DNA of 64,000 nt from Kiritimatiellia bacterium. GTDB lineage: Bacteria; Verrucomicrobiota; Kiritimatiellia; RFP12; UBA1067. The position numbers and the translations under genes were made by a program. The stretch lies in NCBI GenBank assembly GCA_017403825.1, contig JAFRDO010000043.1, positions 1 through 64,000 on the forward strand, written 5' to 3'. The notes under the pieces are model-generated. The model searched no databases, was not told where the DNA came from, and was given only the letters and a program-made list of their open reading frames with translations. Below, one piece after another: positions 17,042 to 36,600 of this stretch. Each line of letters begins with the position of its first letter. The stretch's first letter is position 1.

Positions 17042-17044
17042 CGC

Positions 17045-20000
17045 TTAGTCAAACTGATGATAGAACAAAACCCTTGTCCTGTGTGGCGGACACTGTTCTC
17101 GGACATTAAGCAAGGCGGACAACGAACTGATGGCAGAACGATTAACGCGACTCGCCGCGTTCTTCTCGGGTACGGCGGGATCGCGCCAGACAAGCGCGAC
17201 GGCGCGCGCACCAAGCTGCGACGAAGCACGGCTCAGGCTGCCGCCGCCGACGGACGATGGCTCGGCCCGCACGAAGATCAGGAACAGTTGCTGCCGGTTG
17301 TCGAAGCAGTCGCGCCAGAACGAGTACAGGTACTTGCGGTCGACGCCATGGAGCGGTTTAGCCAGCGTAAGGCTCGGATCAATGAACGTTTTGTTGTCGT
17401 CGTTTATGCGATTGCCAGCGATTTCCTGCCACATTAGAGAGTTCCAGCCAGTCACCCAATCAGTGCTGCCACGGTGAGCGCGCTGACGGAACACGTCGCT
17501 GATTGCTCCGGCAATTTCGAACAACTCGTCCGACGACATCTCAGCAAGCTGGCTTTTGCCAAACGACAACTCATTCATCATTTTCGTCAAATCAGTATTA
17601 CCACCATACGCCTCGCTCACTAAATTATTCTGCACGCCAGCCTGCGTATAGTGGTCGTAGTTTGTCGAAGCGACGTAGTAGTCAAACGGGGTTCCTATAA
17701 GTGCAGCGGTTACGACACGATCGTCGTCTGAGAACGGGTTGAGCTTGAACCCGCCGGAACCGGAAAGGACTGAGACCGTCTTGCCATTGTACTGCATCGA
17801 GTATGGGTTGATTTCCATTGTGCCGTTGCCGTCATTGTCGAATGCTGTGTATGTCTTCCAGAAGCGTGAACCATTGGCGAAATTGTTGAAGTTGCCACCC
17901 TCTATCGTATCAGATGCTTTGCGGTCCGAGAATGGCTTGCCATTGAAGTTAGGCGTATAGTCGCCGCTGTTGAAGCTGGCCGAACCGTCAAAGACGTCAA
18001 GGCGCGGCAGGAACTGCAGCTCGCCGATGGACTGCAGATACTCCTGGTCGGAGACGAACATGAAGATGTCGCGGTCGCGTCCGTCCTGTCCCATAACCTT
18101 GGAGGTCGTTCCATTCAGCCCAAGAAACTTCATCCATTCGGACTTGCTGGCCGCCTCGCTTTTATCGTCCGAGAACCAGTCCTCCGGCGCGAAGTTGTAG
18201 CGCGGATCGACGGCATAGAGAGCCTTCCACTCCGTGAAAGCAGGCTGGGCGACAAGCGTCGTCTCGATGTCCTCGTACTTTATATCCGCAGCGGACTTGA
18301 AATTGAGGAGCGGGATGTCGTCGCCACACCACCTGTTGTATAGATTGCTGTCTGGATTCGGCAAGTTTGCACCTAGCCATATAGGATCGTCTTTTGCACA
18401 CGCCGGCACCATATCCACGACCTGATTACCATCCATGACCTGAACCCACACGGCCGCGTAGAGGCGGTATGCGTCCGGAAGCTTGGTTACGTCAAGCTCA
18501 GTCACACCGTTGGGATACGGGACTGCCGTATTGAAGTTTGCTTTCTGGGCCAGGTCTTGCCAGGCTCTATCAATGCCGCCGTTGACAGTCAGAGGACGCA
18601 ACGCTTTGGGAACATTATTCAAGTCCCCGAACGAAGAATAGGCATTCTGGAAGTTTTTGCCATCTGGAATAGCGCCGGTGTAGCCATCAGCCCTCGGATT
18701 GACCTCCTCTACCTTGTAATATATCGGCATCTGAACGTCAAGATCGGAGAATGTCAGCGTCACCTCGGCTCCATCGACTATGGCATCCGCAGTAGTCTGG
18801 ATGTCGCGGTTGAAGCTTGACATCGTCCTCGAATCGCTGAGAAACGTTGCCACGCCATACCTGACCTCACCATTCTTCCAATCGGCCGGTTCAGGATAAA
18901 GGTTATTGGCAATACCACGGCAGCCCATTCCGTCTGGTGCCAGCCACACACGCAGAAGTCCACGGATCGTGTAGTCCTTGGTCCTCTCCTCCGTCTTCAA
19001 CCGCTTGAACGGACATATAACGACTGCAGTAACCGTAACACGGTTGCCGAACGAGGTAATGCCGAACGGACGGCAGAGGCGATCGATGACGATGTTGTTG
19101 ACATCAACCTCATTCCCATCGCTGTCTCTCGCCTTTCCAAAAAGGTTCGGAACTTGGGTTTTGACCTGATTCCCGATTTCGCCAAGCGATGGCTGAAGAC
19201 CAGCGGGGTGGCCGATGCCTACCACCATCGGCACAGCCTCAACCGTAGGAATGAAGAGAGAAATCGGCTTCGAGTCACTGTCAAGGTAGTCGTAGAGACA
19301 GGCGATGCCAAGACCAAGGTTTTTCTCGTACAGCTTGTCCACGCCGTCCGTATTGTTTAGCGACGTTAGCGTAGCCAGCAACGACGAGGCGTTGTAGTCC
19401 TTGAACGGCTGGGCGTTGGAACCGAGGTCGAATACCATCGTCTTGTCGTCGGTAACGGGCGGAAGCCACCAAGTGTCGGTGATGAACATCGCATTCGCCG
19501 TCCTGGATGACTCGCCTAAGTTCTGGAGAGGACCTCTCATTGACGTGCCTATGAAATCCATAAAAGGCGCATATTGACCTGAACCTGCAACGACGTTAAA
19601 GTCCGCTATGGAAGTGAACGGCACGACGTTGCCATACAACTTGCCTTTCTGCTCGACTTTTTCGAGGATAGTGTCAAGATCGGTGACGGCACTGTCGTCT
19701 AGATCGGTCGGCTCGCCGAAGCTTTTGGCGCAAAGCGATGCGAGGGTGATACGGTCGAGACCAGAGTTGCGCGGCACGTTCGCCCTGAGGCGGTTTATGT
19801 CGAACATGTCGGACACGTTTACAGCGCAGTATGCATAACGGCCGGCGTCGTAGGGGAATGGACGCCAGCTTGCCGTGCGCGTAAGTCGGGAGAGCCGACG
19901 CACGTCGTCGATGATGGCGGGCGGCAGGTAGGCAAGGGCCTCCAAGGTCAGCGTCGGCACCGTCGCGTCGGTACTTTCCACGGGACCGAACGGCATGAAA

Positions 20001-20392
20001 ACGCGTCCCAACCAGAAGTCGCCGTTCAGTCTGGGATTATCACGCTCGGTATTGCTGTTCAGCACGACGCCGGGGTACGGGTCGTCATAGATGCCGTAGA
20101 AGCGCACCAACCTCTCATCGTCATTGTTATTGCTGTTGTCGTCTCCCGTCAAGCCCCAATCTGGGTTGGAATTGAAGTCGCCCTCCAGTTCTTCGATCGC
20201 TTTTGCAAGGGCCGAACGCACCAGATAGCGCGCAGCGACGTTGCGCCGGAGGTAGCTCGACGGAATGCGGCTGGAACGCATGTAGAACGAGAACCCCACG
20301 GCTGAGACGACCATGAACGACAGCATGCCGAGCACAATCAGCAGGGCAGAGCCAGGCTTGAAACCTCCCAAACCTATGTACTTCTTTCCCAT
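17045..20392 (-). CDS. Very large GspK/PilX-like minor pilin protein
   Basis: A 1,115-residue protein with an N-terminal hydrophobic helix (GSALLIVLGMLSFMVVSAVGF, about 14-34) preceded by a basic stretch. An SSYLRRNVAARYLVRSALAKAIEEL helix follows, the arrangement seen in GspK/PilX minor pilins. A section with DMFDINRLRANVP...GLDRITLASLC resembles the helical GspK domain. It is far longer than GspK (about 320 residues). The rest (about 300-1,115) is rich in Asn, Asp, Gly and Thr, without a domain I recognise. It lacks Glu at +5, as GspK does, and could cap a pseudopilus. It sits 1 nt after the 151-residue pilin gene. Confidence 0.75.
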   Translation of the reverse strand: MGKKYIGLGGFKPGSALLIVLGMLSFMVVSAVGFSFYMRSSRIPSSYLRRNVAARYLVRSALAKAIEELEGDFNSNPDWGLTGDDNSNNNDDERLVRFYGIYDDPYPGVVLNSNTERDNPRLNGDFWLGRVFMPFGPVESTDATVPTLTLEALAYLPPAIIDDVRRLSRLTRTASWRPFPYDAGRYAYCAVNVSDMFDINRLRANVPRNSGLDRITLASLCAKSFGEPTDLDDSAVTDLDTILEKVEQKGKLYGNVVPFTSIADFNVVAGSGQYAPFMDFIGTSMRGPLQNLGESSRTANAMFITDTWWLPPVTDDKTMVFDLGSNAQPFKDYNASSLLATLTSLNNTDGVDKLYEKNLGLGIACLYDYLDSDSKPISLFIPTVEAVPMVVGIGHPAGLQPSLGEIGNQVKTQVPNLFGKARDSDGNEVDVNNIVIDRLCRPFGITSFGNRVTVTAVVICPFKRLKTEERTKDYTIRGLLRVWLAPDGMGCRGIANNLYPEPADWKNGEVRYGVATFLSDSRTMSSFNRDIQTTADAIVDGAEVTLTFSDLDVQMPIYYKVEEVNPRADGYTGAIPDGKNFQNAYSSFGDLNNVPKALRPLTVNGGIDRAWQDLAQKANFNTAVPYPNGVTELDVTKLPDAYRLYAAVWVQVMDGNQVVDMVPACAKDDPIWLGANLPNPDSNLYNRWCGDDIPLLNFKSAADIKYEDIETTLVAQPAFTEWKALYAVDPRYNFAPEDWFSDDKSEAASKSEWMKFLGLNGTTSKVMGQDGRDRDIFMFVSDQEYLQSIGELQFLPRLDVFDGSASFNSGDYTPNFNGKPFSDRKASDTIEGGNFNNFANGSRFWKTYTAFDNDGNGTMEINPYSMQYNGKTVSVLSGSGGFKLNPFSDDDRVVTAALIGTPFDYYVASTNYDHYTQAGVQNNLVSEAYGGNTDLTKMMNELSFGKSQLAEMSSDELFEIAGAISDVFRQRAHRGSTDWVTGWNSLMWQEIAGNRINDDNKTFIDPSLTLAKPLHGVDRKYLYSFWRDCFDNRQQLFLIFVRAEPSSVGGGSLSRASSQLGARAVALVWRDPAVPEKNAASRVNRSAISSLSALLNVREQCPPHRTRVLFYHQFD

Positions 20393-20393
20393 C

Positions 20394-20849
20394 TCACTCC
20401 TTCTCCTCGTCTAAAAGCCGATAGAAGTTTGGTAGACTTGGAGCCGTCTGGTAACCAGAACTGCTCGGCGGCGTGATGGCACCGGCCCTCTTTATCATGA
20501 ACTCGTATGGATTGCCCCATGGGTCAAGTATCTGCCCGTTGCTGATCTGCGCGTTGTAAAGGATAGGCACCTGCTCGCCGCTATCTGAATCCTCGCCGCC
20601 AAGAATCATAGACAGTGACGTTTTCGTGGCTTCCTTCCAGCTGCCCGTTGCGTAGTTCTTCAGCGAACGACCCTTGGCGTAGTTCTCGAAGGCAAGAATC
20701 GCGTTAGTCATCTCCTTGGCGTCCTGAGTCGCCCTGGCAATCTGTGCGCGGCGCCGCGCCTGGCTCATGCTCGAGCCGACGGCACCTGTGAGGACGGCGA
20801 TCATGCCGATCACCACCAGCAGTTCTATCAAAGTGAAGCCGCGCCTCAT
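20394..20849 (-). CDS. Small pseudopilin, GspG-like
   Basis: A 151-residue class III prepilin. MRRGFTLIELLVVIGMIAVLTG has a leader cleaved after Gly, Phe at +1 and Glu at +5. The C-terminal part contains QILDPWGNPYEFMI, the DPWGxPY motif of major pseudopilin GspG. Among the cluster members this is the best candidate for the major filament subunit. It overlaps the upstream gene by one base (TGATG) and ends 1 nt before the GspK-like gene. Confidence 0.88.
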   Translation of the reverse strand: MRRGFTLIELLVVIGMIAVLTGAVGSSMSQARRRAQIARATQDAKEMTNAILAFENYAKGRSLKNYATGSWKEATKTSLSMILGGEDSDSGEQVPILYNAQISNGQILDPWGNPYEFMIKRAGAITPPSSSGYQTAPSLPNFYRLLDEEKE

Positions 20850-21391
20850 CAGTTTACATCCTCCGGGAAGGTGTTGATGTCATCGGCAGTGTTCAGCTTC
20901 TTGTCTGGTCCTCTGCTGCGCACGCCGACGACAAAGGCGCTGCCGCCCTGAACCGTGCCTGAGCCAACGCCTGTGTTGGCTCTGCCGACGCGTGCATCCT
21001 GCATGCCGAACTGTATCGCCGATGCCTCGCCCCAATCAATCCGGTCGTAGAGACGGCCCGAACAACCCCTGCTGATGCTGTTGGCATTAAGCTTGCCACT
21101 TCCGCCCCAATTCCTAAAAATCGACACTGTGCGATATTCTATTTGACGGCTGTCGCTTGAACCGGCCCCCGCCTGGGACGTAGTCTGCCCGAGACCGGGC
21201 AATGCGTCATCTTCTATGTCGTGATAGGTGCCGAGGCGGACGCGCACGCGGTCAAGCTCGACGACGCCCGCGACGCCAGTTCGCCATGCGATCGACGACT
21301 GGTTGAAGATCATGGTCAGTATGGTGACGAGCATCGAGAGCAGAAGCGACGCCACCAGCAACTCAAGCACGGTGAATCCAGAACGCTTCAC
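20849..21391 (-). CDS. Minor pseudopilin, GspJ-like
   Basis: A 180-residue prepilin with MKRSGFTVLELLVASLLLSMLVTIL (cleavage Gly-Phe, Glu at +5), followed by a Ser/Trp-containing stretch and LDRVRVRLGTYHDIEDD, the kind of R/E-rich helix found in GspJ. The C-terminal half is Gly- and Ser-rich and carries no domain I recognise. The start overlaps the upstream gene by 4 nt (ATGA). Confidence 0.78.
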   Translation of the reverse strand: MKRSGFTVLELLVASLLLSMLVTILTMIFNQSSIAWRTGVAGVVELDRVRVRLGTYHDIEDDALPGLGQTTSQAGAGSSDSRQIEYRTVSIFRNWGGSGKLNANSISRGCSGRLYDRIDWGEASAIQFGMQDARVGRANTGVGSGTVQGGSAFVVGVRSRGPDKKLNTADDINTFPEDVN

Positions 21392-21966
21392 TGATCCGTC
21401 CTCCCCTGGAAATGAACTTCAGTGTAATATACCGGCTGGCTCATTAACGCTTCGCGTCGCCGGCTCGCCCGAAACGCCAGCGAGATAGCCGAACCCTTGC
21501 GCGTCGCGACAAGCCCGTAGTAATAGCCGGAACTGACCGCCGGGAAAGACCCCTTATACTCTGCCGGAGCCTCCCCGACGATTCGGTCAAAGACTTGCCT
21601 GGCCAAGCTGTTACACCCGGAGGCGACGCGATACGACTCGTATCTGCCGTCATTGTCGGAGTCCAGTTTCGAGACGTAGGCCACCCAGCCGCCATTCGGC
21701 GCAAGCCCGTTGCAGCCATAACTGTTGTCCACCTGGGGCACGGCATTGCACCAACCGCTCCACGTCATGTTGGTGGCGGAAAGCCCCGCCACGAGCGGCG
21801 CGAAAAACGCATCGGCGAGACCGGCGGAAGCGACGTCCTCCTCGCTCTGGCGGCTTTCGCGGAAACCCAGCGAGTACAGCGAAACCATGCCCAGCACACC
21901 CGTCGCCATGATGAAGATGGCGAGGTTTACTTCCATAAGGGTAAAAGCCTGTCTCATGCGCTTCAT
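21388..21966 (-). CDS. Minor pseudopilin, GspI/PilV-like
   Basis: A 192-residue prepilin with a short leader, MKRMRQAFTLMEVNLAIFIMATGVLGM. The FTLMEVxLAIxI...GxLG pattern is typical of PilV/GspI proteins. A helix (ESRQSEEDVASAGLADAFF) follows, then a globular domain without a known family. It overlaps its neighbours at both ends by 4 nt. Confidence 0.8.
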   Translation of the reverse strand: MKRMRQAFTLMEVNLAIFIMATGVLGMVSLYSLGFRESRQSEEDVASAGLADAFFAPLVAGLSATNMTWSGWCNAVPQVDNSYGCNGLAPNGGWVAYVSKLDSDNDGRYESYRVASGCNSLARQVFDRIVGEAPAEYKGSFPAVSSGYYYGLVATRKGSAISLAFRASRRREALMSQPVYYTEVHFQGRTDQ

Positions 21967-22856
21967 TTGGCATTGTCTCCGGAGCTGGAAGCCGTGCCAG
22001 CCTTGTGATGCGCCCGCAGTACGCCGCTAGCGTCCGTCCGGCACGCCCAGATGTCAATTGACTTGTTCGCGGAAAAGTTGGCGGGATTAAATGTAAACGT
22101 GTCGGCTATTACAATGCTTCCCACTCTCGCCGGAACTTTGCTCCCGAACAAGAACCCTTCCGGAAGACGGATCGTCTGGAACTCAAAACCGTAGCCGCTG
22201 CCAACCTGCCAAGTCGGCTCTCGATCGCTCATGTTAAGGTTATAAAACGCGCAAGCGCGGATCTTAGGCATTTTATTAACCAACAGCTCTTTTTGCAATT
22301 CTTGGACAGACGCGTCACTGCTCAACTGGGCACCTTCGCCTTCACTCAGCCGGTCGCCCCATGATGTGAACGAATACGCCGCGCCGATGTCATCATTGTC
22401 ATACACCGCATCTGCAACCACCGAATACTGCATCTGGACCTCGTCAGTGTCGTCAAAACGCCAAAGACGCATTCCCTTGCCGTTCTCCAGCTTGGACTTT
22501 TCTGTCTGCCTGTCATAGCTACGGTCTAAGTCACCGAACTCGTCGTAAAGGTATCTGCCCTGCACGCACGTGATGCGCCCGTAGCGACGAATCGCCACGG
22601 CCTCGCCCACTATTACGGCATTCTCGTCCTCCGATGCCTCACGAAGCATGCGGTTGTAGCAGAAGACCGCCGTCGGCACGCGGTCGACCATGGCACGCTC
22701 CTTGGCGGCCTTCAGCAGCGCACTGGCGGCGTCGACCGCACCACGTTCCGCCATGCCGCGCTGGAGGGCGTTATAACCGTTCGTAGCGGCAACGCCGAGG
22801 AACGCCATGATTCCCACGACGACCATCAGCTCCATCAATGTGAACGCGCGGCGCAT
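21963..22856 (-). CDS. Pilin-like protein, GspH/FimT-like N terminus
   Basis: A 297-residue prepilin with MRRAFTLMELMVVVGIMAFLGVAA followed by AALLKAAKERAMVDRVPTAVF, which matches the GspH/FimT layout (a helix and then a strand beginning R-x-P-T). It is longer than typical GspH. The ATG at 22856 is preferred over an upstream TTG that would overlap the previous gene. GGGAG lies 12 nt upstream. Confidence 0.78.
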   Translation of the reverse strand: MRRAFTLMELMVVVGIMAFLGVAATNGYNALQRGMAERGAVDAASALLKAAKERAMVDRVPTAVFCYNRMLREASEDENAVIVGEAVAIRRYGRITCVQGRYLYDEFGDLDRSYDRQTEKSKLENGKGMRLWRFDDTDEVQMQYSVVADAVYDNDDIGAAYSFTSWGDRLSEGEGAQLSSDASVQELQKELLVNKMPKIRACAFYNLNMSDREPTWQVGSGYGFEFQTIRLPEGFLFGSKVPARVGSIVIADTFTFNPANFSANKSIDIWACRTDASGVLRAHHKAGTASSSGDNAK

Positions 22857-22864
22857 CTCAATCG

Positions 22865-23515
22865 TCACTCCCAATCTACAGGATAAGTCTTGTCTGGATG
22901 CTTGCGCGACACGCTAACGGAATCCGTCTGCGAATTGTACGTTATCCAGAAGCGGCAGAACTTGCCGTTGGTGCGACCTTGCCAGCCGAACGCCATGTTA
23001 TTGAGCGAAATGTGCACCTTCGAGTCCTTGTTGGCGGCAAGCGAAAAGTCTACGCCATTGATGCATTGCTTGTCGCCGCAGTAAGCCGTGCAGTTCCGGT
23101 CGCCGTGCACGTCAAAGCAGCCGTCTCCGCGCACCCTGCTCGCGTTCGCCACGAAAAGCGCCGTAGCGTCGACGAGCGGACGCGACGCACCAGTTCCGAC
23201 GGACTTGCGGACGACTTCGCGGAGTATCTGGTCGCCTTCGGTGGCGGTGAAGGTGTACTTGATCTTGTTGCCCATGTTGCCGCTGCGCGACTCTATCACC
23301 TCCGGCCAGCGGCCCTCTTGCGCGTAGTACGCCGCAATCGCCTGCTGCAGGGCGCTTGCCATCGCCTGGGCACGGCGCGTCCGCCCGTTCTTGATCGACC
23401 CCGTGGCGGCCGTAGTCACGATGCCGAGCAAAATGCCGATGATTGAGATCACCACCAACAGCTCGACGATGGTGAAGCCCGCCGACAGTCCCTTGCCTCT
23501 GGTCCCTCTCGTCAT
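22865..23515 (-). CDS. Pilin-like protein (prepilin-type cleavage/methylation)
   Basis: A 216-residue prepilin. Its long basic leader ends SAG before FTIVELLVVISIIGILLGI. It then has RAQAMASALQQAIAAYYAQEGRWPE, a GspG-like helix and loop, and a C-terminal domain with four cysteines (about 135-160, CFDVHGDRNCTAYCGDKQC), which could form disulfides in the periplasm. The start at 23515 has GGAAAG upstream; an earlier TTG is possible. It follows the previous gene by 13 nt. Confidence 0.78.
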   Translation of the reverse strand: MTRGTRGKGLSAGFTIVELLVVISIIGILLGIVTTAATGSIKNGRTRRAQAMASALQQAIAAYYAQEGRWPEVIESRSGNMGNKIKYTFTATEGDQILREVVRKSVGTGASRPLVDATALFVANASRVRGDGCFDVHGDRNCTAYCGDKQCINGVDFSLAANKDSKVHISLNNMAFGWQGRTNGKFCRFWITYNSQTDSVSVSRKHPDKTYPVDWE

Positions 23516-23528
23516 CTTTCCAGCCCCC

Positions 23529-24182
23529 TTACTTCTCAACCTGCTGACGGCTCCAGCTGTAGCAGTTGTCGCGCTTCAGCCCGTCTGAATACTTCCATAT
23601 CTTGCCGTCACGTCCGCAGCTCCACGCCACGGCGGAAGCACGGATCTTCAGCGTTTCGCCGCCGACTGAAGCATTAACGTAACCAAGGCCCTCGGTATCG
23701 ACGGCGAAATGTATGCGGTGGTCCCTGATCGTGCCGCCAGACGGCACCGCCGTGCCGTCCGAGACTCCCTTGTTGCCCTTGCGTTTCACCGTGTCCTGTC
23801 CCCATGGCGTGAGGATGCCGCACCTATCGGCGCCTACTGTCTTCTTCGTGCTGCTGTCGTATGTCAGCGTCATCGCGTTTCGCTTCGCCAGCTCGTAGGC
23901 CACATCGGCCGTCATCTCGCCGTCGCGGCTGCCGTTGCTGATTACCCGTCGCGGAAAGCTGCTCTCGCGCTGGTAGATTGCCTCTAGCGCAGTCGCCACG
24001 TTGCTCACGACCTCGCGAGCGCGGGCTTGCTGAGCCTTCTTGGTCGCCGACGAGAACGTGGTCATTCCCGCGCCGATAAGAATGGCCAGGATTCCCATCA
24101 CCACAAGCATCTCAATCAGGGTGAAGCCAGAAAGCGCCCCACCCCTTACCTTTCTAAATCTTCCAAACCTCTGTACCTTCAT
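23529..24182 (-). CDS. Pilin-like protein (prepilin-type cleavage/methylation)
   Basis: A 217-residue prepilin. The basic leader MKVQRFGRFRKVRGGALSG is cleaved before FTLIEMLVVMGILAILIGAG. The helix SSATKKAQQARAREVVSNVATALEAIYQRESSFP is GspG-like. The remainder ends in a Trp-containing segment (SCGRDGKIWKYSDG), which also appears in related pilin-like proteins of this phylum-level group. The start at 24182 leaves a 14-nt gap to the operon's first gene. Confidence 0.78.
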   Translation of the reverse strand: MKVQRFGRFRKVRGGALSGFTLIEMLVVMGILAILIGAGMTTFSSATKKAQQARAREVVSNVATALEAIYQRESSFPRRVISNGSRDGEMTADVAYELAKRNAMTLTYDSSTKKTVGADRCGILTPWGQDTVKRKGNKGVSDGTAVPSGGTIRDHRIHFAVDTEGLGYVNASVGGETLKIRASAVAWSCGRDGKIWKYSDGLKRDNCYSWSRQQVEK

Positions 24183-24196
24183 ACCTCTACACCTTC

Positions 24197-25369
24197 TCAA
24201 TTCTTCATATGCACGATATCGTCGGCCATCCATTGCTGTGCCGTCGCGCGGTCTCTAAGCCTTGACAGCTCCTCGTCCGTCACCCACGGCGGGAACGTCT
24301 TGCCGTTCGGCCCCGCGCTCCACAGCGTGTAGGTCTGATGCGGCGATGGCGAATAGTAGTAGAATTCATGGTACCAACCGTCCACGACCGTCACGTTGTC
24401 GAGCAGATACTGCCCCGAACTGCTGCTGCTGGCACCGCTCTGCGAATTGCCTGACGAGTATACCACAGGATCGGTCGTGTCGGCAGAGACCGAAACGGAA
24501 CCGTGGATATCATCGCGAAGGCGTACGCCATAGACGTATCGGTCCTTCGAGCTAAGGACAATGCCCTCTAGGTTAGGCAGCCAACGCGCACAGACAGACT
24601 GTGACGGCAGGGCCGTGATCTTCCAACCGTCGGTTTTATTCCACCTTTCATTGATCACGGTTGCCCAGTCGAGATACGGCTGCCCGGTTGTAAAGTCGCA
24701 CGGCAGTTCGTTATGCATGCCCCACTGATTCTGTTCCGTGAAGAATCCCACGAACTCGCTCGGCGGAGAATTTTCAGAACCCGAAGGATAGAAGATAACC
24801 AGGAGACGCGGCAACAGGTAGCTCATAAGCCCGAGCTTAAAGACCTGCGCATGAGACCATGACGAATATTTAGCCTTGTCTTTTATCCGACTGCTGTCGG
24901 TAAGGGCACTGAAGCCACCCTTGAGAACCGGGTTGTTCCTGAATTGCGCGTAACGGGCCTCGCTGGAGTTGGCCTTTTCCATCAGCAACCTGGCTATCTC
25001 ATCGACATAGTCGGCCATGCTCTTGTTCGAGAACGGAAAGCTCATTCCGACCGGCTGGCTGCGGCAGGCGGCTTCTACGCGCTTCCATTCCAGGTTGTCC
25101 ATATGAAGGTCTTTTTCGGTCTGCTGTATGCCGTGGAGGTCGACCTGGTAAGTGTAGTCGCGGCTGCCGTGCAGGCCGACCGGCGGATAGCTGCCGTACG
25201 CGGCGTAATAGCCCGAAAGGCAGTTTTCGAGCCGCTGCATGCGGTTGATAGTGCGTGACTTGTATGTCGATTCCGAACCGACGCTGCCGAGGCGGAAGGT
25301 AACCGCCATCAGCGTGACGATCACCACCACAACAACAAGCAGCTCGACGAGTGTGAATGCCCTTCTCAT
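24197..25369 (-). CDS. Pilin-like protein, first gene of the pseudopilin operon
   Basis: A 390-residue prepilin-type protein with MRRAFTLVELLVVVVVIVTLMAV, a short leader followed by the conserved helix with Glu at +5. The NRMQRLENCLSGYYAAYGSYPPVGL segment after it matches the GspG-type helix and loop. The C-terminal half carries LWSAGPNGKTFPPWV, a SAGPDG-like element common in GspG-type pseudopilins. It is the largest of the pilin-type members apart from the GspK-like protein. It heads the operon, 10 nt after a TATAAT box. Confidence 0.8.
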   Translation of the reverse strand: MRRAFTLVELLVVVVVIVTLMAVTFRLGSVGSESTYKSRTINRMQRLENCLSGYYAAYGSYPPVGLHGSRDYTYQVDLHGIQQTEKDLHMDNLEWKRVEAACRSQPVGMSFPFSNKSMADYVDEIARLLMEKANSSEARYAQFRNNPVLKGGFSALTDSSRIKDKAKYSSWSHAQVFKLGLMSYLLPRLLVIFYPSGSENSPPSEFVGFFTEQNQWGMHNELPCDFTTGQPYLDWATVINERWNKTDGWKITALPSQSVCARWLPNLEGIVLSSKDRYVYGVRLRDDIHGSVSVSADTTDPVVYSSGNSQSGASSSSSGQYLLDNVTVVDGWYHEFYYYSPSPHQTYTLWSAGPNGKTFPPWVTDEELSRLRDRATAQQWMADDIVHMKN

Positions 25370-25422: not shown

Positions 25423-27069
25423 CTATTTCGCGTGCGAACCAAGCCTCCGGTCGATTGCCAGTTCCTCGTTCCAGGAGGTCGCGACTGACGGATCGGCTGG
25501 CGCCGCTCCAAGCTGCAGTTTGAAGAAGCCCTCGTAAGCGTCCTTGCCGTTCAGGCCCTTCAGCGAGAACGCGACCTCCTTCGTGCCGGACGGCACCCGC
25601 CCGACGAATGAAATTGTCTCGCCGCGATAGAGGTTGCGCAGGAGCCTCGGATACGCCTCGGCGCGCGTGCCGGACGCGAACACGATGCGCAGGTCGGTCA
25701 GAACAGGGTCGCGGAAGCGCTCGGTGAGACTCTCTATGCCGCTACCGGCCCTCCGCCGCTGCCAACCGTCGAAGATGAGGCTCTCGCCACGGTTGCCGCG
25801 AGTGAGCACGTCTATGAGCGCACGGTTGGCCGACGTCTTCACCCCGTACATGTAGACGGAGACCAGCCCGTCGTTGAGCGCCGTGAACTTGGACAGTATC
25901 TCCCCGGTGTCGCTCACGCCTTCGTTCGCCTCGCCGTCGGTGACGACTAGCGCGATCAGCGGGCGCGTCGGGTCGCGCGGCAGCGTAAGGACCGAGCTGA
26001 TCGTCGAGAACACGTCCGTGCGCCCGTGCGCGGCGAGGTTGTCGATCCACTTGTCCGCAGCGTCGAAGGAGGCCTTCGTGCATTCCTGCCATTGGCGGAA
26101 CGCATACGAGAACTTGTCGCGGAACGCGACGAGGTTGAAACGGTCGTCGGAGTTCGCCGCGCTGCGCAGTATCCGCCGCGCCGCGCCGCGTATCGACGCC
26201 ATGCGGTCCTTGCCGATGGACCCGGACGCGTCAATCAGCACTACGAAGTCCTTGGGCACGACCGACAGCGACGAGCGGGGCGAGAGCATAACGCGAAAAT
26301 ACGTCCAGCCGTCCTTGGCGGTCGCAGTCATGACGGCGTTGACAGCCTTCGAGAGCTCCTTGGCGTCCTCTGCTGCGACAAGCGCGCTCACGGCCTTCTT
26401 CTCTGCGGCGACGACTTGCTCGTCGACCTTCTCGTAGACTTCCGACGCCGGCGTGAACGTAGGCGGCGGAGCGGCGCGCGACGCCTCTTCGCGCAAGATC
26501 TTCGCCGGCTCAAGGGACTCGACCGGGTCGCTGGCAGCGACGGCAGACGGCACTGACGGCGGAGGCGGAACCTCGCGAACCACGGTCTTCGGAACCTCAA
26601 TGGAGAACGTCGGCGCCGAATTCGCCGCCGCCGCGGCCTCGGGCGTCTCGATGCGCGTAATTGGAACGGCAACGCCTCCCACGGCGTCCTTGCCGCCGGT
26701 CTTCACGGGACTCACGTCAAACACCGGGGCCGTCGGGGGCGGCGGCACGGTATCGTCCACTGCCGACGGTGCCGGCGCGTCCGGCGCACGGACGGGCCCG
26801 TCGGCCACTGCCTCAGCCACGGGGACTGACACGGTGGCGACAGGCGCGTCCTTAGCCGCCTGCAGATCCTCCAGCGCACCGATTCCGACCGTATCCGGCC
26901 TTTGCTCCGCCTTGACGACGCGCATCGGCGGGTGGCGGGCGTGCCTCGTCGCATCGGTCACGACGTGCGTCATGACATGGGGCCGCACGAGCAGCATCAG
27001 CGCGACGTGTATCGCCACCGATGCCGCGACTGCCACAAGCACGGCTTCCTCGCGGCGCTCCTTCGTCAT
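25423..27069 (-). CDS. VWA-domain protein with a TonB-like N-terminal anchor
   Basis: A 548-residue protein in the TonB position of an exbBD operon. Residues 1-28 resemble the TonB anchor: a short charged cytoplasmic tail, then a helix containing Ser17-Val-Ala-Ile-His21, which matches the S-x3-H motif (Ser16, His20) that TonB needs for coupling to ExbB/ExbD. Residues 60-215 are rich in Pro, Ala and Val, like TonB's periplasmic spacer. Residues 275-440 form a von Willebrand A domain with a metal-ion site (DASGS, 280-284, plus TDVFS and VVTDGEAN). No TonB C-terminal domain is present. The best reading is an energised envelope protein in which a VWA domain replaces TonB's receptor-binding domain. 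It overlaps the TPR gene by 4 nt. Confidence 0.82.
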   Translation of the reverse strand: MTKERREEAVLVAVAASVAIHVALMLLVRPHVMTHVVTDATRHARHPPMRVVKAEQRPDTVGIGALEDLQAAKDAPVATVSVPVAEAVADGPVRAPDAPAPSAVDDTVPPPPTAPVFDVSPVKTGGKDAVGGVAVPITRIETPEAAAAANSAPTFSIEVPKTVVREVPPPPSVPSAVAASDPVESLEPAKILREEASRAAPPPTFTPASEVYEKVDEQVVAAEKKAVSALVAAEDAKELSKAVNAVMTATAKDGWTYFRVMLSPRSSLSVVPKDFVVLIDASGSIGKDRMASIRGAARRILRSAANSDDRFNLVAFRDKFSYAFRQWQECTKASFDAADKWIDNLAAHGRTDVFSTISSVLTLPRDPTRPLIALVVTDGEANEGVSDTGEILSKFTALNDGLVSVYMYGVKTSANRALIDVLTRGNRGESLIFDGWQRRRAGSGIESLTERFRDPVLTDLRIVFASGTRAEAYPRLLRNLYRGETISFVGRVPSGTKEVAFSLKGLNGKDAYEGFFKLQLGAAPADPSVATSWNEELAIDRRLGSHAK

Positions 27070-28967
27070 TTCGCAGCCTCCGGGTGCGCGGCAAGTATCC
27101 GCTTGGCCTCGGCGCACAGGGCCTCGTCGTCAAACAGAGACACGACTACCGTGGCGTATGCGCATGCCGACTGCACGTCTCCGCTCTGCTCCGCGTTCTT
27201 TGCAAGCGTGACGTAAGCCTCGGCGCGGGCGCGGGCGTTGGCGGCATTCAGCGCAATCGCCTTCTTCAGCGAATTTTCCGCCTGCGCAAACTCCCCGGCG
27301 CGGAACTCAAGCTTGCCGAGGCGCAGCGCCGCGTCGGCAGCAGCCTCCGTCCTGGCTGGCTCGGCCAGGCACTTGCGGTAGGCGTCGATGGCAGCTGCAT
27401 AGGACTCGCGGCTCTCCTCGCACGAGCCAAGCAACGCCCAGCCGGCCTGACGCCATTCCGACGCATCGCTCTTCGTAAGCTCACGCGCGCACGTCTCGGC
27501 CTCGGCCCCGCCGAGGAACCTCCCCACGGAAAGCATGCGCGACGCGCTCATGCGGGCACAGGCGCCGTCGCGAACCAGCTCGGAGTATGCGGTCCGCGCC
27601 GCATCAAGCCTGCCGGACTTGTAATCGAAGTCAGCTACCATCAGCTTCGCCTCGCGGGCCTCGTCCAGCGAAAGCCCGGACTCGATAGCCTCACGCAAGA
27701 ACCCGGCGCCGGTCTCCTCGTGGCCGAGCTTCATCGCGGCCACGCCGCGCCAGTAGAGCGCCTCGCCCTTGCGCTTCCCAAGGCGGCCAGTCGCCAGCGC
27801 CTCCGCAAGCGCCAGCTCCGCGCCAGACCAGTTGCTGTCCGCCGCCGCGATCATCGCCCTGCGGTACATGGCCTCGGCCGCCTCGTCTGTGCCGGGGAAC
27901 TTCTTCGCCACCTGCGCGTACTCCTCGGCGGCGGCCTCCGCCTTGCCCGCCTTCTCGTAGGCCCATGCAAGCCGTATCTGGTCGGACGCCAGCTTCGACA
28001 GCCCGAAGCTGCGGCGTGCCGTCTCGACCGTCTTCGCGGAGTCGTCGCTCTTGCGGGCCGCCTCGAACTCAATGCGCGCTACAGGCAGCTCCGCGTCAGC
28101 CCGGTAATGCCCTTCCGGGTAGTCCTCCAGGTACTTCTTGAACAGGGTCAGCGCCCGTGCGTTGTCGCCCGTCGCATATGCGCAAGCAGCACGTATGTAG
28201 GCAAGGTCGTCAGACTCGCCTTCGCCGCAAGCCGCAGCCGCGTCGGCGTAGCGGCCTTCGAGGAAGTCGCACCAGACGGACATCGTTCGCGTCTCTGCGG
28301 CATGCTCCCCCGACGGATACAGCTTGCGGTAGCGCCGAAAGAGGCTGCCGGCCTCGCCGTAGCGGCGGTCGCGGTAGCACTGCAGGGCTGCGAGATAAAG
28401 CGCCTCGGACCCCATCGGGCCGCCTGCGAAGGCGATCCCTAGCAGCGTCTCCACGCCCTTGCGGCGCACGGCCGGGTCGTCCGACGAGGTGAACTTCGTT
28501 CCTATCTTAAGGTTGGCGTAAGGGGCGTACTTGCCCTTCGGCTCGAGCTTCACGCAACGGGCCAGGATCTCCGTGTCGGAGGTCTCAGAGCCAAGATAGT
28601 AGAGCGCGGCGGCCCGCACGTCGGGCGCAACGCGGTCGGAGTCCAGCTCGGCCAGCAGGTGCGTGCGCTCGGCCCCCCGCGCCCCCATCGCGTACATGAA
28701 CCGCGACCGCGAGGCGTGCCGCGAATCCGGGTAGCGGTTGAATATCTCGGCGTATCCTCTACGCGCGGCCTCGTTGCGGCCGGCGACGCGGTCGCACTCC
28801 GCCAGCCTGAACAGCAGCTCGTCTGCCGCAATTCCCTTCACGCCGGAAAGCGTACGGTACTCCGCCTCCGCGTCAGCGTAGCGCCCGCGGTTGAAGAGAC
28901 GGTCGGCCATTGCCAGCCTATCGGATGGCAGCACCGCGATCGCCAGCGCCAGGGCCGCGAAAATCAC
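27066..28967 (-). CDS. Periplasmic TPR-repeat protein of the exbBD operon
   Basis: A 633-residue protein that starts with a hydrophobic signal/anchor segment (IFAALALAIAVLPSDRLA). It continues as a solenoid of degenerate tetratricopeptide repeats (for example NRGRYADAEAEYRTLSGV, DAALRLGKLEFRAGEFAQAE), resembling the YbgF/CpoB/BamD type of envelope TPR proteins. The start is taken as GTG at 28967, because it forms a GTGA overlap with the exbD stop, as all other junctions here do, and has GGAGGG upstream. An ATG at 29006 is the alternative. It probably acts as a periplasmic scaffold for the ExbBD-VWA machine. Confidence 0.83.
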   Translation of the reverse strand: MIFAALALAIAVLPSDRLAMADRLFNRGRYADAEAEYRTLSGVKGIAADELLFRLAECDRVAGRNEAARRGYAEIFNRYPDSRHASRSRFMYAMGARGAERTHLLAELDSDRVAPDVRAAALYYLGSETSDTEILARCVKLEPKGKYAPYANLKIGTKFTSSDDPAVRRKGVETLLGIAFAGGPMGSEALYLAALQCYRDRRYGEAGSLFRRYRKLYPSGEHAAETRTMSVWCDFLEGRYADAAAACGEGESDDLAYIRAACAYATGDNARALTLFKKYLEDYPEGHYRADAELPVARIEFEAARKSDDSAKTVETARRSFGLSKLASDQIRLAWAYEKAGKAEAAAEEYAQVAKKFPGTDEAAEAMYRRAMIAAADSNWSGAELALAEALATGRLGKRKGEALYWRGVAAMKLGHEETGAGFLREAIESGLSLDEAREAKLMVADFDYKSGRLDAARTAYSELVRDGACARMSASRMLSVGRFLGGAEAETCARELTKSDASEWRQAGWALLGSCEESRESYAAAIDAYRKCLAEPARTEAAADAALRLGKLEFRAGEFAQAENSLKKAIALNAANARARAEAYVTLAKNAEQSGDVQSACAYATVVVSLFDDEALCAEAKRILAAHPEAAK

Positions 28968-29383
28968 TTGCCCTCCCCTCCTTCGGTTGCGAGCGAAAAG
29001 TTCCACACATCGGCCTCGCGGCAGGTGTCGATCACGCCGACGAGCTTCTCGTAGGCCGTGGCGCGGTCAGCCCGAATGATGACCGGCTGGCCGGGATAGA
29101 ACTTCGAGATACGCGCCAGACGGGTCTTCAGGTCTCCCAGGGCAAGCTCGCGCCCGTTGACCGTAACCTTCCCCTCCTTTGACAGGTTGATCACGATCTC
29201 CCCGGGAAGGCGGTCCGGCTCCTTTGCGGACTCCGCCGACGGCAGCTGGATCGAAATCTCGTTCTCCCACTGCGAGAAGACGCTGACCGTCACGAAGAAG
29301 CAAAGCAGAAGGAAGATCACGTCGAGCATCGACGTCAGCGCCAGCCGTGGCGCGCGGGAGGCTGTTCGGCGCACGAACTTCAT
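28964..29383 (-). CDS. exbD: ExbD/TolR-family biopolymer transport protein
   Basis: A 139-residue single-pass inner-membrane protein. The N-terminal helix carries the essential aspartate (LTSMLDVIFLLLCFFVT, Asp21), followed by a periplasmic domain ending in VIIRADRATAYEKLVGVIDTCREADVWNFSLAT. It forms the proton-conducting stator with ExbB. The start at 29383 overlaps the exbB stop by 4 nt (ATGA). Length and motifs are normal for the family. Confidence 0.93.
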   Translation of the reverse strand: MKFVRRTASRAPRLALTSMLDVIFLLLCFFVTVSVFSQWENEISIQLPSAESAKEPDRLPGEIVINLSKEGKVTVNGRELALGDLKTRLARISKFYPGQPVIIRADRATAYEKLVGVIDTCREADVWNFSLATEGGEGK

Positions 29384-29853
29384 GCCAGCTCCTCGATCTC
29401 GGCTATGCGGCGCTGGGCGCGGCGGCGGAAGAACGCATGGGCGAGAAGCGCGGGTATGGCCACGACGAGGCCGAAGATAGTCGTAACGATCGCCTGCGAG
29501 ACGCCTTGCGCAAGCACCACGGGCTTCGCGCCTGCGGCCACGTCGGAAGCGATGCCGCCGAACGCGCGGAACATTCCGAGCACCGTGCCCAGAAGTCCGA
29601 CGAGCGGCGCGATGGCCGCTATGTCCGCCAGCCAGTCCACCGACGCCATCATGCGGTCTGCGATGCGTCCGCCTTCCGCCGCCGGGTCCTTCGCCGCGCG
29701 TATCCGCGAGACGGCGTCGGGCACGCAGATGCCGCGACGCTGGGAATACCAGAGGTAGAACATCACCGCAAGCCCCATCACCGAGAAGAACGCAAGCACC
29801 CACATGAGGGGCCCGCCGAAGTTCCATGCCTGCTCGAAAGTTATGTCGCCCAT
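29380..29853 (-). CDS. exbB: ExbB/TolQ/MotA-family proton channel
   Basis: A 157-residue protein with three transmembrane segments (about 13-33, 80-100 and 117-140). It carries the family signature ADIAAIAPLVGLLGTVLGMFRAF and GVSQAIVTTIFGLVVAIPALLAH. It is shorter than E. coli ExbB (244 residues), mostly from a reduced cytoplasmic loop. The start at 29853 has an AAGGCAGAA ribosome-binding stretch. It is the first gene of the exbB-exbD-TPR-VWA operon. Confidence 0.92.
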   Translation of the reverse strand: MGDITFEQAWNFGGPLMWVLAFFSVMGLAVMFYLWYSQRRGICVPDAVSRIRAAKDPAAEGGRIADRMMASVDWLADIAAIAPLVGLLGTVLGMFRAFGGIASDVAAGAKPVVLAQGVSQAIVTTIFGLVVAIPALLAHAFFRRRAQRRIAEIEELA

Positions 29854-32898: not shown

Positions 32899-35800
32899 TC
32901 ACTTGCCCTTAAGCCGCCGCACGGTTATGGTGCGGTTGCCGCGCGAAGTGGCGATGCGACGCCAGTCCTTGACCAGTTCGTGGAACTCCGGGCGGTACCA
33001 TGACTCCCCGCGTTTCAGCACCTTGCGCTTTATCGTTACCGCCAGGCGTCCGTCCGCGCCGGTCGCCGACGAGACCTCGCTCTCCAGCCAGACCTTGCCG
33101 GGATCGGACGGGTCGGAGAACATGAACGGCGAAGGCAGATGCTCGAGCGCACCGTATCCCTCCGGGAATTTCACCGTCACCGTCTCCTCCTCCGGGTCGC
33201 ACGCGCCAACCTCAAACGGCGTCTGGCGGACGTTCCCTGCGGCAGACGGAATGGACGACGACAGCGGCGGCAGCTGGATCGTGATCGCGTCGCCCTGCAC
33301 GGTCGCGAAGTCCGGTATGAAGCAGGAGAACTTCATGCGCGCCGGATAAGATTCGACGTCAGTCTCCAGGTCGCCGGTGGCCGTCGCTGCCTGTGCGACA
33401 TTGCCAAGAATCTCCTGGTAGCGGCGCGAACGCTCTTCAGGCAGGATCTCGGAATAGCGCTTGCGGAACGCGCCGACGCCCGGCCCGGCGATCTCGTTCA
33501 CGACCGTAAGGTCGACCGAGCCGTTCTCCCGCACGTCGTATTCGCTGGCTTCGCTCGTCGCCCGCTCGAACTTCGGATCCGGCACGGTCACGACGCCGAA
33601 CTCACCCGTCGCAGGGTCGAAGTAGTCGCTGCCGGCATACGACGACGGCCCAAGCGGCGAATACTGGGTTTCCGTGCCAAGGAAGAAAGTCCTTTCCTCT
33701 CCGCCGAAGCAAAGGAAGCCGCCTTCGCGCACCGTAACGCGGCAAAGCGCCGACGAGAACTCGCGCACGTTCGGCTTCTCGAACATGATGCGGCGCTTCA
33801 CCGCCTCCGGCTCGTCGGCGTCGGACGACGCGAACACGACGTCCGCCTCGAAGCCTGCGCCACGCAGCAGCGAGCACAGCGTGCGCACGTAGTCCAGCCG
33901 CGTGGCGTAGCGCTCGCGAAGCACCGTCTCGGGCGGCGTGAGCTGAAGCCCGACCGGCAGATCCCAGAGCCCCGGCCCTGCCACCTTCACATACTTCGCC
34001 ATCCAGTCGCGGATCGCACGAATCCTGTCCTCCGCAGTGCCGCCTGCCGCGCCTTCCCCAAGCGCCTTCGCCGGGTCGAGCGGACTGATCGCGAGGTCAA
34101 GCCTCTCAAACCTGTTGGACGACACTATCACCACGTCGCGCCAAAGCGCGGCGTCGGGCTGGTCGGGTTCCTTCGGCACGCGGCGCGGACCAGTGACTTC
34201 GCGACGCCAGTCGTTGACGCGCACGATGCGCCTGTCGAGAGGCTCCGTGGAGTCGAAGCCGTACTCCGCGTAGAATGCGGCAGGTGCGTTCGTCACGGCG
34301 CGGACGAGCGAGAATGAAATGACGCTGCCGATCTCGACCGCCGGCAGGTTGACCACGAGCATCTTGCCGGCCGGGTAACGCGGCGCGGCGGCGGCCCAGC
34401 CGCAGTCCATTACGTTCTTCTCCCGGTCGGACACGAAACGCACCTCGCCGTTGCGGTTGCTGACCGACGCATGCAACAGCTCGACGGTCTCCACGGCTGG
34501 GTTGAAATTGAACTTCAGCTCGGCGAACTTCTTCTTGCCGGCGTAGGTCAGCACCTCGCGGACCATGGTGTTGGTCGTGGTCCACTCCCGGTCGGAGAAC
34601 ACCGTCGTCTCGGTGGAGCAGAGCACGCACCGGGAGTCCGCCTCGCGGAGCGGATCCACCGCGAACACCGGCTTCCGCCTCGCCGCCGCCTCGATGCGCT
34701 TGATATCCTCGCGAAGCTCCGCGTATGCCTTCGGAGAGAACTCGACCGCGCCGATAGAGAACGAGCGCACGGCGCGGAGTTCGCCGTTGGTGACGGAGAA
34801 CGACCGCTCGAACCTGCAGCCTGACGACTCTCCGACCGAGTCGTCAGGCAACTCCACCGCCGCGCCGACAGAGTCCCCAAGGTCGATACGCACGCGCTCA
34901 GAGACCCGCGCCGTCGTGTCGAGTAGGAGCGGATAGCGCCGCTGCGCCAGCGACGTGTTGCCGGAAAGCAGGAAGTTCGCCATTCCCAGCGCACCGGACA
35001 GGAACGGCACGTTCAGCACGGACTGCGTCTCGCCGCGTATCACCGCCTCGGGGACGTTTACCGCCATCCGCACCACCACCGGACGCTCCGTGTCGCGCAT
35101 GTCCTTCGGCTCGACGTCGCACCTCACCAGCTCCGCACCAGGCGCGATGCCGCGCACGATCTTCTCGAAGAGCTTGACGCGGTCGCCCGGCTGGCGGCGG
35201 ACGAGCGCGCCGCGGTACGCCGTGTCGTTGATGCCCATGAAGCGTATCTCGCTCTCAATGAAAAGTGCCCCGTCCTTCGACACGGAACCCGACGACTCCA
35301 CGTCCAGCAGGTTCCGCCCGGGCGAAGGAACCGCGGACGTCTTCAGGCATTCGCCCTCCGGGCAGCACACGAGATAGCTCCTGTTGCAGAGGTACGAGGG
35401 AAAGATGTCCTTGGCGTTCTCGTTCGTCGGGTCCATGAGGACGTACCTGCCGTCCTCGCTACCGCGTTCCGCCTTGTCGATCTCGCTTCCTTCCGCCTCG
35501 ACCGCCACGATCGCGTGGTTGAAGAACGGCTGGGGAACGTCGGGGTCGAGCTTGGCGCCGACATGGATCAGCACGGGGTACGCCTTGAACCCGGCGAGGC
35601 GGAGCATCGCCACGAGTAGCGCCGCCTTGTCGCGACAGACTCCGTAACGGTTGTCGAAGGTGATGTCGACGTCATGCGGGGCGTAGCCGGGAGACGTGTC
35701 CTCCATCATCAGGCCCATGTACCGCACTTCCTGCGAGACGAACTTGAATATCGCGCGGAGATCGCGCCCGAGCTCGGCCGTCTTGGCGCACATGGCGGCG

Positions 35801-36600
35801 TTCGTCTTCGCGAGATGCGGGGCGCAGAGATCCCAGTACCAGCGCGAGATCTCCAGCCAGTCCGCCGCCGTCGAGACGCGCACGTGCTGCACCTGCGTGT
35901 AGAGCGGCGGCATGTCCGGCTCCGGGAACGCCTGCGGGGAGTTGGTGACGGTGAACGTATGGACGGTCGAGCCGTCGGCAAGGCGCGTGGCGTTTGTGAC
36001 GATGTTGCCGAGGGGATTGCGTATCAGTATCCGATTCAGCGGACGTGACGGCGGCGCCGTCACCTCGTAGACGCCGCGCACGATCGGCACCTTCCACTCC
36101 ATCACCGAGAGGTCGGACCACTTGTCGCGGCAGCGCGGCTTCTTCGCCGTGCGGCGCGTCTTCACGTGCAGAGTGTCACCGACCTTCAGGCCAGGAATCG
36201 TGCATACGATCTGCCGGTCCAGCGGATCGTAGATGTTCGCCGACATCGACCCGTTGTCGGTCGACTCCTTCGTCGTCGCCGAGACGTCGATCTCGCGCTC
36301 CCGCCCGTCCTCGCCGACCGCCCTGACGAACACTATCTCGGCCTCGCCGTAGCGACGCGAGTAGTCGAGGCGCAACGTACTCTCGTCGCGCCTGCCCTTC
36401 TCCGTCAGTATCTTCGTCCAGCATTCCTCGATCGACTCGTACGTACCGTCGGGGTTGTAGCGCACGCGCTCCGCCTCGTCCACGATCACGGCGTCTGCGT
36501 CGGGGAAGCGGGCGGAGGTGACGGGTTCGTCGGCCCGAAGGACGAGCGCGGCGAACGCCGAAAGGACTATGAGTAACACTACGTTTGCTTTTTTCTTCAT
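32899..36600 (-). CDS. Possible internally started DUF3857/transglutaminase protein (nested start)
   Basis: ATG at 36600 begins MKKKANVVLLIVLSAFAALV, a complete signal peptide (basic n-region, 15-residue hydrophobic core, cleavage near LRA-DEP) for the periplasmic transglutaminase part. A consensus TGGTATAAT lies 42 nt upstream inside the ChrA coding frame. A 1,233-residue secreted form could thus be made separately from the fused form. No Shine-Dalgarno is seen before this ATG. Shown as an alternative start, not a separate gene. Confidence 0.45.
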   Translation of the reverse strand: MKKKANVVLLIVLSAFAALVLRADEPVTSARFPDADAVIVDEAERVRYNPDGTYESIEECWTKILTEKGRRDESTLRLDYSRRYGEAEIVFVRAVGEDGREREIDVSATTKESTDNGSMSANIYDPLDRQIVCTIPGLKVGDTLHVKTRRTAKKPRCRDKWSDLSVMEWKVPIVRGVYEVTAPPSRPLNRILIRNPLGNIVTNATRLADGSTVHTFTVTNSPQAFPEPDMPPLYTQVQHVRVSTAADWLEISRWYWDLCAPHLAKTNAAMCAKTAELGRDLRAIFKFVSQEVRYMGLMMEDTSPGYAPHDVDITFDNRYGVCRDKAALLVAMLRLAGFKAYPVLIHVGAKLDPDVPQPFFNHAIVAVEAEGSEIDKAERGSEDGRYVLMDPTNENAKDIFPSYLCNRSYLVCCPEGECLKTSAVPSPGRNLLDVESSGSVSKDGALFIESEIRFMGINDTAYRGALVRRQPGDRVKLFEKIVRGIAPGAELVRCDVEPKDMRDTERPVVVRMAVNVPEAVIRGETQSVLNVPFLSGALGMANFLLSGNTSLAQRRYPLLLDTTARVSERVRIDLGDSVGAAVELPDDSVGESSGCRFERSFSVTNGELRAVRSFSIGAVEFSPKAYAELREDIKRIEAAARRKPVFAVDPLREADSRCVLCSTETTVFSDREWTTTNTMVREVLTYAGKKKFAELKFNFNPAVETVELLHASVSNRNGEVRFVSDREKNVMDCGWAAAAPRYPAGKMLVVNLPAVEIGSVISFSLVRAVTNAPAAFYAEYGFDSTEPLDRRIVRVNDWRREVTGPRRVPKEPDQPDAALWRDVVIVSSNRFERLDLAISPLDPAKALGEGAAGGTAEDRIRAIRDWMAKYVKVAGPGLWDLPVGLQLTPPETVLRERYATRLDYVRTLCSLLRGAGFEADVVFASSDADEPEAVKRRIMFEKPNVREFSSALCRVTVREGGFLCFGGEERTFFLGTETQYSPLGPSSYAGSDYFDPATGEFGVVTVPDPKFERATSEASEYDVRENGSVDLTVVNEIAGPGVGAFRKRYSEILPEERSRRYQEILGNVAQAATATGDLETDVESYPARMKFSCFIPDFATVQGDAITIQLPPLSSSIPSAAGNVRQTPFEVGACDPEEETVTVKFPEGYGALEHLPSPFMFSDPSDPGKVWLESEVSSATGADGRLAVTIKRKVLKRGESWYRPEFHELVKDWRRIATSRGNRTITVRRLKGK

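Follow-up and report, generated by a model that had tools for sequence, protein, structure and literature searches.

Four genes on the minus strand of a Kiritimatiellia contig, within a stretch of 64,000 nucleotides that was analysed as a whole (hereafter the window), encode an ExbB/TolQ-like protein, an ExbD/TolR-like protein, a TPR protein and a membrane-anchored VWA protein (Table 1). A trans-envelope machine driven by the proton motive force (PMF), built from ExbB-ExbD, the VWA protein and the TPR protein, is the best explanation for this operon and is likely to be the right one. The VWA family is real and widely conserved, and sequence comparisons across the phylum indicate that it is probably coupled to the motor. 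Force transducers of the vWA type were first proposed, and defined from Tichowtungia, by Williams-Jones et al. 2025 (PMC12204202); as that proposal is already published, the motor-driven VWA idea is here a rediscovery, and the present operon is set against it below.

The Operon and Its VWA Protein

The genes overlap by 4 nt at each of the three junctions (ATGA for ExbB/ExbD, GTGA for ExbD/TPR and ATGA for TPR/VWA), and the junctions and Pfam matches together bear out the gene set and the overlaps described in a first-pass annotation of this DNA. The overlapping start of the TPR gene is a GTG at 28967, and a second GTG lies upstream at 29006; relatives use the start equivalent to 28967, which favors the overlap start. 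None of the four operon proteins matched a PADLOC model at E 0.01, and with no such match among them a role in anti-phage defence was dropped.

Table 1. Features of the four-gene operon and of its VWA protein, in window positions.
Feature	Position	Strand	Evidence
ExbB/TolQ-like motor protein, 157 aa	29380..29853	(-)	PF01618 (MotA_ExbB) 88.1 bits, above cut-off
ExbD/TolR-like motor protein, 139 aa	28964..29383	(-)	PF02472 (ExbD) 95.6 bits, above cut-off
TPR protein, 633 aa, hydrophobic signal-like N-terminus	27066..28967	(-)	TPR_6 60.7 bits, above cut-off
Membrane-anchored VWA protein, 548 aa, proposed force transducer	25423..27069	(-)	PF00092 (VWA) 39.7 bits, above cut-off
TM helix, residues 3-27, with Ser17-x3-His21	26989..27063	(-)	Helix in AlphaFold2 model; conservation
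Pro/Ala/Val-rich disordered spacer, residues 30-215	26425..26982	(-)	pLDDT mostly <60; composition
VWA domain, residues 270-455; MIDAS DASGS 26218-26232, Thr351, Asp378	25705..26262	(-)	Conservation; structural matches with Z up to 24
Beta-sandwich, residues 243-264 and 455-519	25513..26343	(-)	Model secondary structure; ITIH1 match

By their Pfam matches, channel threonines and proton-binding Asp, ExbB and ExbD belong to the ExbB-ExbD/TolQ-TolR type of motor. Asp21 of ExbD, already reported in the earlier annotation, lies in the TM helix (codon 29321-29323) and is invariant in 25/25 operon ExbDs, and Thr90 and Thr125 of ExbB, which we take to be the channel threonines of ExbB/TolQ from their position in the aligned helices, are invariant in 23/23 ExbBs. 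The window proteins also align with solved structures, ExbB with those of ExbB/TolQ and ExbD with those of ExbD/TolR, including 7ajq_F. Among NCBIfam models, the best match for ExbB is tolQ (63 bits, cut-off 221), with exbB at 55 bits (cut-off 206), such that neither equivalog cut-off is reached; ExbD scores highest with tolR, far under the equivalog cut-off; and the TPR protein scores 109 bits with tol_pal_ybgF (cut-off 90), which is a TPR-repeat model, and this match to YbgF may be unspecific. TolQ, TolR and YbgF are likewise the top NCBIfam matches for related operons. The ExbB of the window is unusually small (157 aa) compared with order-level relatives because ~45 residues between the TM segments are missing from it and from its genus relatives; an N-terminal extension that occurs in the ExbB of other families is also absent from this genus.

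The VWA protein has the N-terminus MTKERREEAVLVAVAASVAIHVALMLLV, which places Ser17 and His21. In an alignment of 75 homologues from across the phylum (18-58% identity to the window protein), Ser17 is kept in 73/75 and His21 in 74/75, against a TM background of 7% Ser and 0.2% His, while the remainder of the first 240 residues is mostly variable; both residues are invariant in the 34 order-level sequences. The two departures, Thr-x3-His and Thr-x3-Tyr, both belong to family f45 (L115:5682-7391 and L125:6694-8412) and have an intact MIDAS. Downstream of the helix, residues 34-215 comprise 16% Pro, 18% Ala and 15% Val, and the MIDAS is formed by D280-A-S282-G-S284 together with T351 and D378; D280, S282, S284, G349, T351, D378 and G379 are conserved in all 75 homologues. 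Both the Ser-x3-His helix and the Pro/Ala/Val-rich spacer followed by an intact MIDAS VWA domain, as proposed in the first-pass annotation, are upheld by these data, and since S-x3-H is kept in the homologues, the objection raised there, that related proteins might lack this helix, falls away.

The VWA protein was matched in 36/40 relatives, and VWA profile matches occur in 184/289 phylum genomes, part of them being other VWA proteins. VIT-VWA paralogues from the same phylum (L144-L146) have no TM helix of the S-x3-H type, and the window protein scores 80 bits with TIGR03788 over residues 241-520 (cut-off 552). A phmmer search of its first 48 residues against PDB sequences gave no match, so the case for homology of the helix to that of TonB/TolA is one of motif and context.

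The AlphaFold2 model of the VWA protein (single chain, built on the 75-sequence alignment; pLDDT 79.6) has a confident helix at residues 3-27 and is disordered to approximately residue 215; the VWA domain is again confident, and strands on either side of it build a beta-sandwich. As regards the beta-strand motor box that follows the TM helix in the published vWA transducers, the model contains no strand before residue 243, in a region of low pLDDT. The best structural match, over residues 159-548 of the model, is inter-alpha-inhibitor heavy chain 1 (ITIH1; Z 24.0, rmsd 3.5, 299 residues), and further structural matches to the VWA module are other VWA proteins. What the predicted model shares with ITIH1 is a likeness of fold, not a demonstration of function.

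Gene Order and Co-inheritance

The order ExbB-ExbD-TPR-VWA, for which the earlier annotation had recommended a survey of relatives, recurs at the genus, family, order and class level with varying flanking genes. Three close named relatives of the locus are two Kiritimatiellae MAGs, of which one comes from yak duodenum, and one genome labelled Lentisphaerae. In many families the VWA gene is unlinked and lies next to housekeeping genes such as secA and rho, with S-x3-H retained, and TPR orthologues are found in both linked and split loci. Unlinking of the VWA gene, named beforehand, together with a separate TonB beside exbBD, as grounds for rejecting the idea, does occur in these families, but the cognate ExbB-ExbD is still kept there as an operon of its own: a separate ExbB-ExbD is present in all 20 of the examined genomes with unlinked VWA, and ExbB-ExbD-TPR in 16 of them.

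The ExbB of the cognate subfamily is usually distinct by score (47 genomes searched, linked ones included). Across 96 class genomes, 72 have both the VWA protein and the cognate ExbB, two have VWA without ExbB, three have ExbB without VWA, and 19 have neither (Fisher p 5e-15, calculated without regard to kinship and mostly from incomplete MAGs). The E-value threshold for this comparison was picked after inspection, with a looser one for the window genus because its ExbB is short, and assembly gaps may account for some of the five discordant genomes. No other evidence speaks as strongly as this co-inheritance for a single machine made of these parts.

The genes around the operon are a separate matter. 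Directly downstream of the VWA gene is a series of pseudopilin-like genes whose products carry methylation motifs at the N-terminus (window 16055-25369, minus strand), within which sits a 1115-aa protein (17045-20392) without a Pfam match; in relatives, this series does not accompany the VWA gene. Since the genes downstream of VWA vary among the genus relatives read, the pseudopilin genes at 21963-25369 were discarded as candidate partners. Elsewhere in the window (32899-37614, minus strand), one 1571-aa frame comprises a two-domain chromate transporter and a DUF3857/transglutaminase-like protein, with an internal Met and a signal-like stretch after the transporter part, and may have arisen by loss of a stop codon or be a genuine fusion.

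Proposed Mechanism, Alternatives and Possible Role

Because the helix-spacer-VWA architecture is conserved and goes together with one particular ExbB-ExbD pair, even when unlinked, motor coupling is the best reading of the VWA protein, and one that we hold to be very likely on the strength of these comparisons. From their families, ExbB and ExbD would constitute the inner-membrane motor, on which the N-terminal helix of the VWA protein would dock through Ser17/His21 in the manner of TolA/TonB, as the invariance of these residues and the co-inheritance suggest. The disordered, Pro-rich spacer is predicted to cross the periplasm, and movement of the motor would then pull, release or remodel whatever partner the MIDAS-bearing VWA/beta-sandwich tip holds, with the TPR protein probably acting as a periplasmic partner or adaptor. 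That the VWA protein transduces force is something we infer by analogy with TolA/TonB.

MIDAS VWA domains are ligand-binding switches, and the same parts could instead make up a sensor or regulator, in which ligand sensing by the VWA tip would gate the motor via the TM helix, with no force carried. The present observations do not separate gating from pulling, but a TM helix joined by an extended Pro-rich spacer to a globular tip is the architecture of a force transducer, and the operon encodes no other transducer; we regard a pure sensor as unlikely. A machine for surface motility or adhesion like CglB/AglRQS of Myxococcus, which the 2025 paper suggests for vWA transducers, would use the same ingredients, a MIDAS VWA protein and a PMF motor (PMC12204202). 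Gliding is disfavored because all five of the tabulated cultured Kiritimatiellota strains are non-motile cocci (PMC10880615), and the VWA protein, whose TM helix anchors it in the inner membrane, is not exported to the surface, such that a machine of this sort is quite improbable here.

The VWA protein could also be the organism's TonB and energize TonB-dependent receptors, of which the window genome has two, while a TonB_C search of that genome gave no match. We give this reading very little credence. Among the four ExbB-like genes of the window genome, one on contig 41 (L060:4973-7145) belongs to an ExbB-ExbD pair followed by a TonB-like protein, which has a TM helix with Ala-x3-His in place of Ser-x3-His, a long Pro-rich spacer, and a weak TonB_2 match at its C-terminus (14.7 bits). 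TonB_C is found in 104/116 class genomes, many with the VWA system among them, and the VWA protein itself matches neither TonB_C nor TonB_2. Given a separate TonB-like gene with its own ExbB-ExbD, the VWA protein is no substitute for TonB at the level of the cell; what it fills is the TonB/TolA position in the operon. The statement in the first-pass annotation that a VWA protein takes the place of TonB thus holds for the operon and fails for the genome, and the separate TonB that would have counted against the proposal exists, but alongside an ExbB-ExbD pair of its own. Finally, the VWA gene stands apart in many families, as would be expected if the VWA protein were merely co-located and its S-x3-H helix a relic, but S and H are near-invariant in the unlinked copies too and VWA is co-inherited with one ExbB subfamily, leaving this last reading with almost no likelihood.

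Another transducer-like set was observed in two distant class genomes, on contig 66 of the window genome (L061:3468-7019) and at L202:4049-7722. In both, ExbB is followed by two ExbDs and by a protein that has a TM anchor, an acidic/Pro-rich spacer and a weakly matching squalene-hopene-cyclase/TED-like alpha-toroid domain, which may be a third type of tip on a motor-driven transducer.

For the machine formed by ExbB-ExbD, the VWA protein and the TPR protein, Tol-like envelope maintenance is a tentative assignment, and a likelier one than nutrient import; it is preferred because the motor and TPR proteins score nearest to TolQ/TolR/YbgF and because hardly any genome of the class has canonical TolB. 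TolB_N was found in 5/116 class genomes, four of the five from family f11, and none was found in the window genome (assembly 91% complete). Family f11 has no VWA system, and two of its loci (G072 and G085) have a clear operon of TolQ-like, TolA-like, TolB and lipoprotein genes in that order; the TolB_N match of G122 lies outside any such TolB/Pal-type operon. The partial complementarity of TolB and VWA suggests that Tol-like work may be done by the VWA machine. Several families lack TolB and the VWA system alike, and one genome (G209) appears to combine the VWA system with TolB and lipoprotein genes, so replacement of Tol-Pal by VWA would not be strict.

More speculatively, and on balance doubtfully, a TolQR-type motor with a metal-dependent, integrin-like VWA tip may have replaced Tol-Pal as the PMF-powered outer-membrane stabilizer in Kiritimatiellia and related lineages, gripping an envelope ligand by MIDAS coordination and not by beta-strand addition. 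Metal-dependent ligand recognition is a chemistry known from integrins. If the machine works as proposed above, proton-driven envelope motors power tips with metal-dependent, integrin-like ligand recognition, and a phylum in which TolB is largely missing may have a different means of holding its outer membrane. The VWA family provides a concrete, widely conserved test set, with a near-invariant Ser/His, an invariant MIDAS and a cognate ExbB-ExbD, and the naturally split VWA and ExbB-ExbD loci allow reconstitution.

Comparison With Known Systems

The proton-driven VWA envelope machine put forward in the first-pass annotation stands as regards its conserved architecture, which tracks ExbB-ExbD; it does not stand as a replacement of TonB in the cell or as a new idea, having been published in 2025 (PMC12204202). 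According to that paper, vWA transducers adjoin TPR, tolQ and paired tolR genes, and they share with the present family a Ser/His TM helix, a disordered Pro-rich linker, a VWA-fold tip, TPR and TolQ-like neighbors, occurrence in PVC bacteria, and a proposed PMF-driven transduction. In contrast with the heterologous pair described there, the window and each related operon read have one ExbD per operon. The published SHLS motif is not conserved in full here (Leu at H+7 in 16/75, Ser at H+11 in 5/75), and the present family has an invariant MIDAS DxSxS and a post-VWA beta-sandwich; neither MIDAS nor metal is mentioned in the main text of PMC12204202. The published layout itself was found in two genomes of family f7 (G116 and G066), with ExbD pairs, S-x3-H proteins, and VWA-like domains without DxSxS. 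The present family is absent from both genomes, and a profile comparison between it and their proteins is weak (probability 59%, VWA part only).

What appears to be new here is a widespread branch with one ExbD and an intact MIDAS, in which only the S and H of SHLS are kept; the claim is a moderate one, since the survey in PMC12204202 may include members of the present family. The second vWA family of that paper has a transpore-helix, an Asp in the TM segment and no ExbD, whereas in the present family there is no TM Asp and ExbD is present.

Compared with Tol-Pal (TolQ-TolR-TolA-TolB-Pal-CpoB), the type of motor, the proposed docking through a TM Ser/His and the presence of a TPR protein in the gene set are the same, but a VWA domain stands in place of the TolA C-terminal domain and the window genome has no TolB_N. 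With TonB-ExbB-ExbD, the operon shares the type of motor, a Ser-x3-His TM helix near residues 16-21 and a Pro-rich spacer; unlike TonB, the VWA protein lacks TonB_C and has a TPR partner, and a separate TonB-like set is present in the genome. The VWA proteins of the ITIH1/TIGR03788 kind have the same VWA and beta-sandwich fold, and it is their VIT/secretion part that is replaced here by a spacer and a putative motor-binding TM helix.
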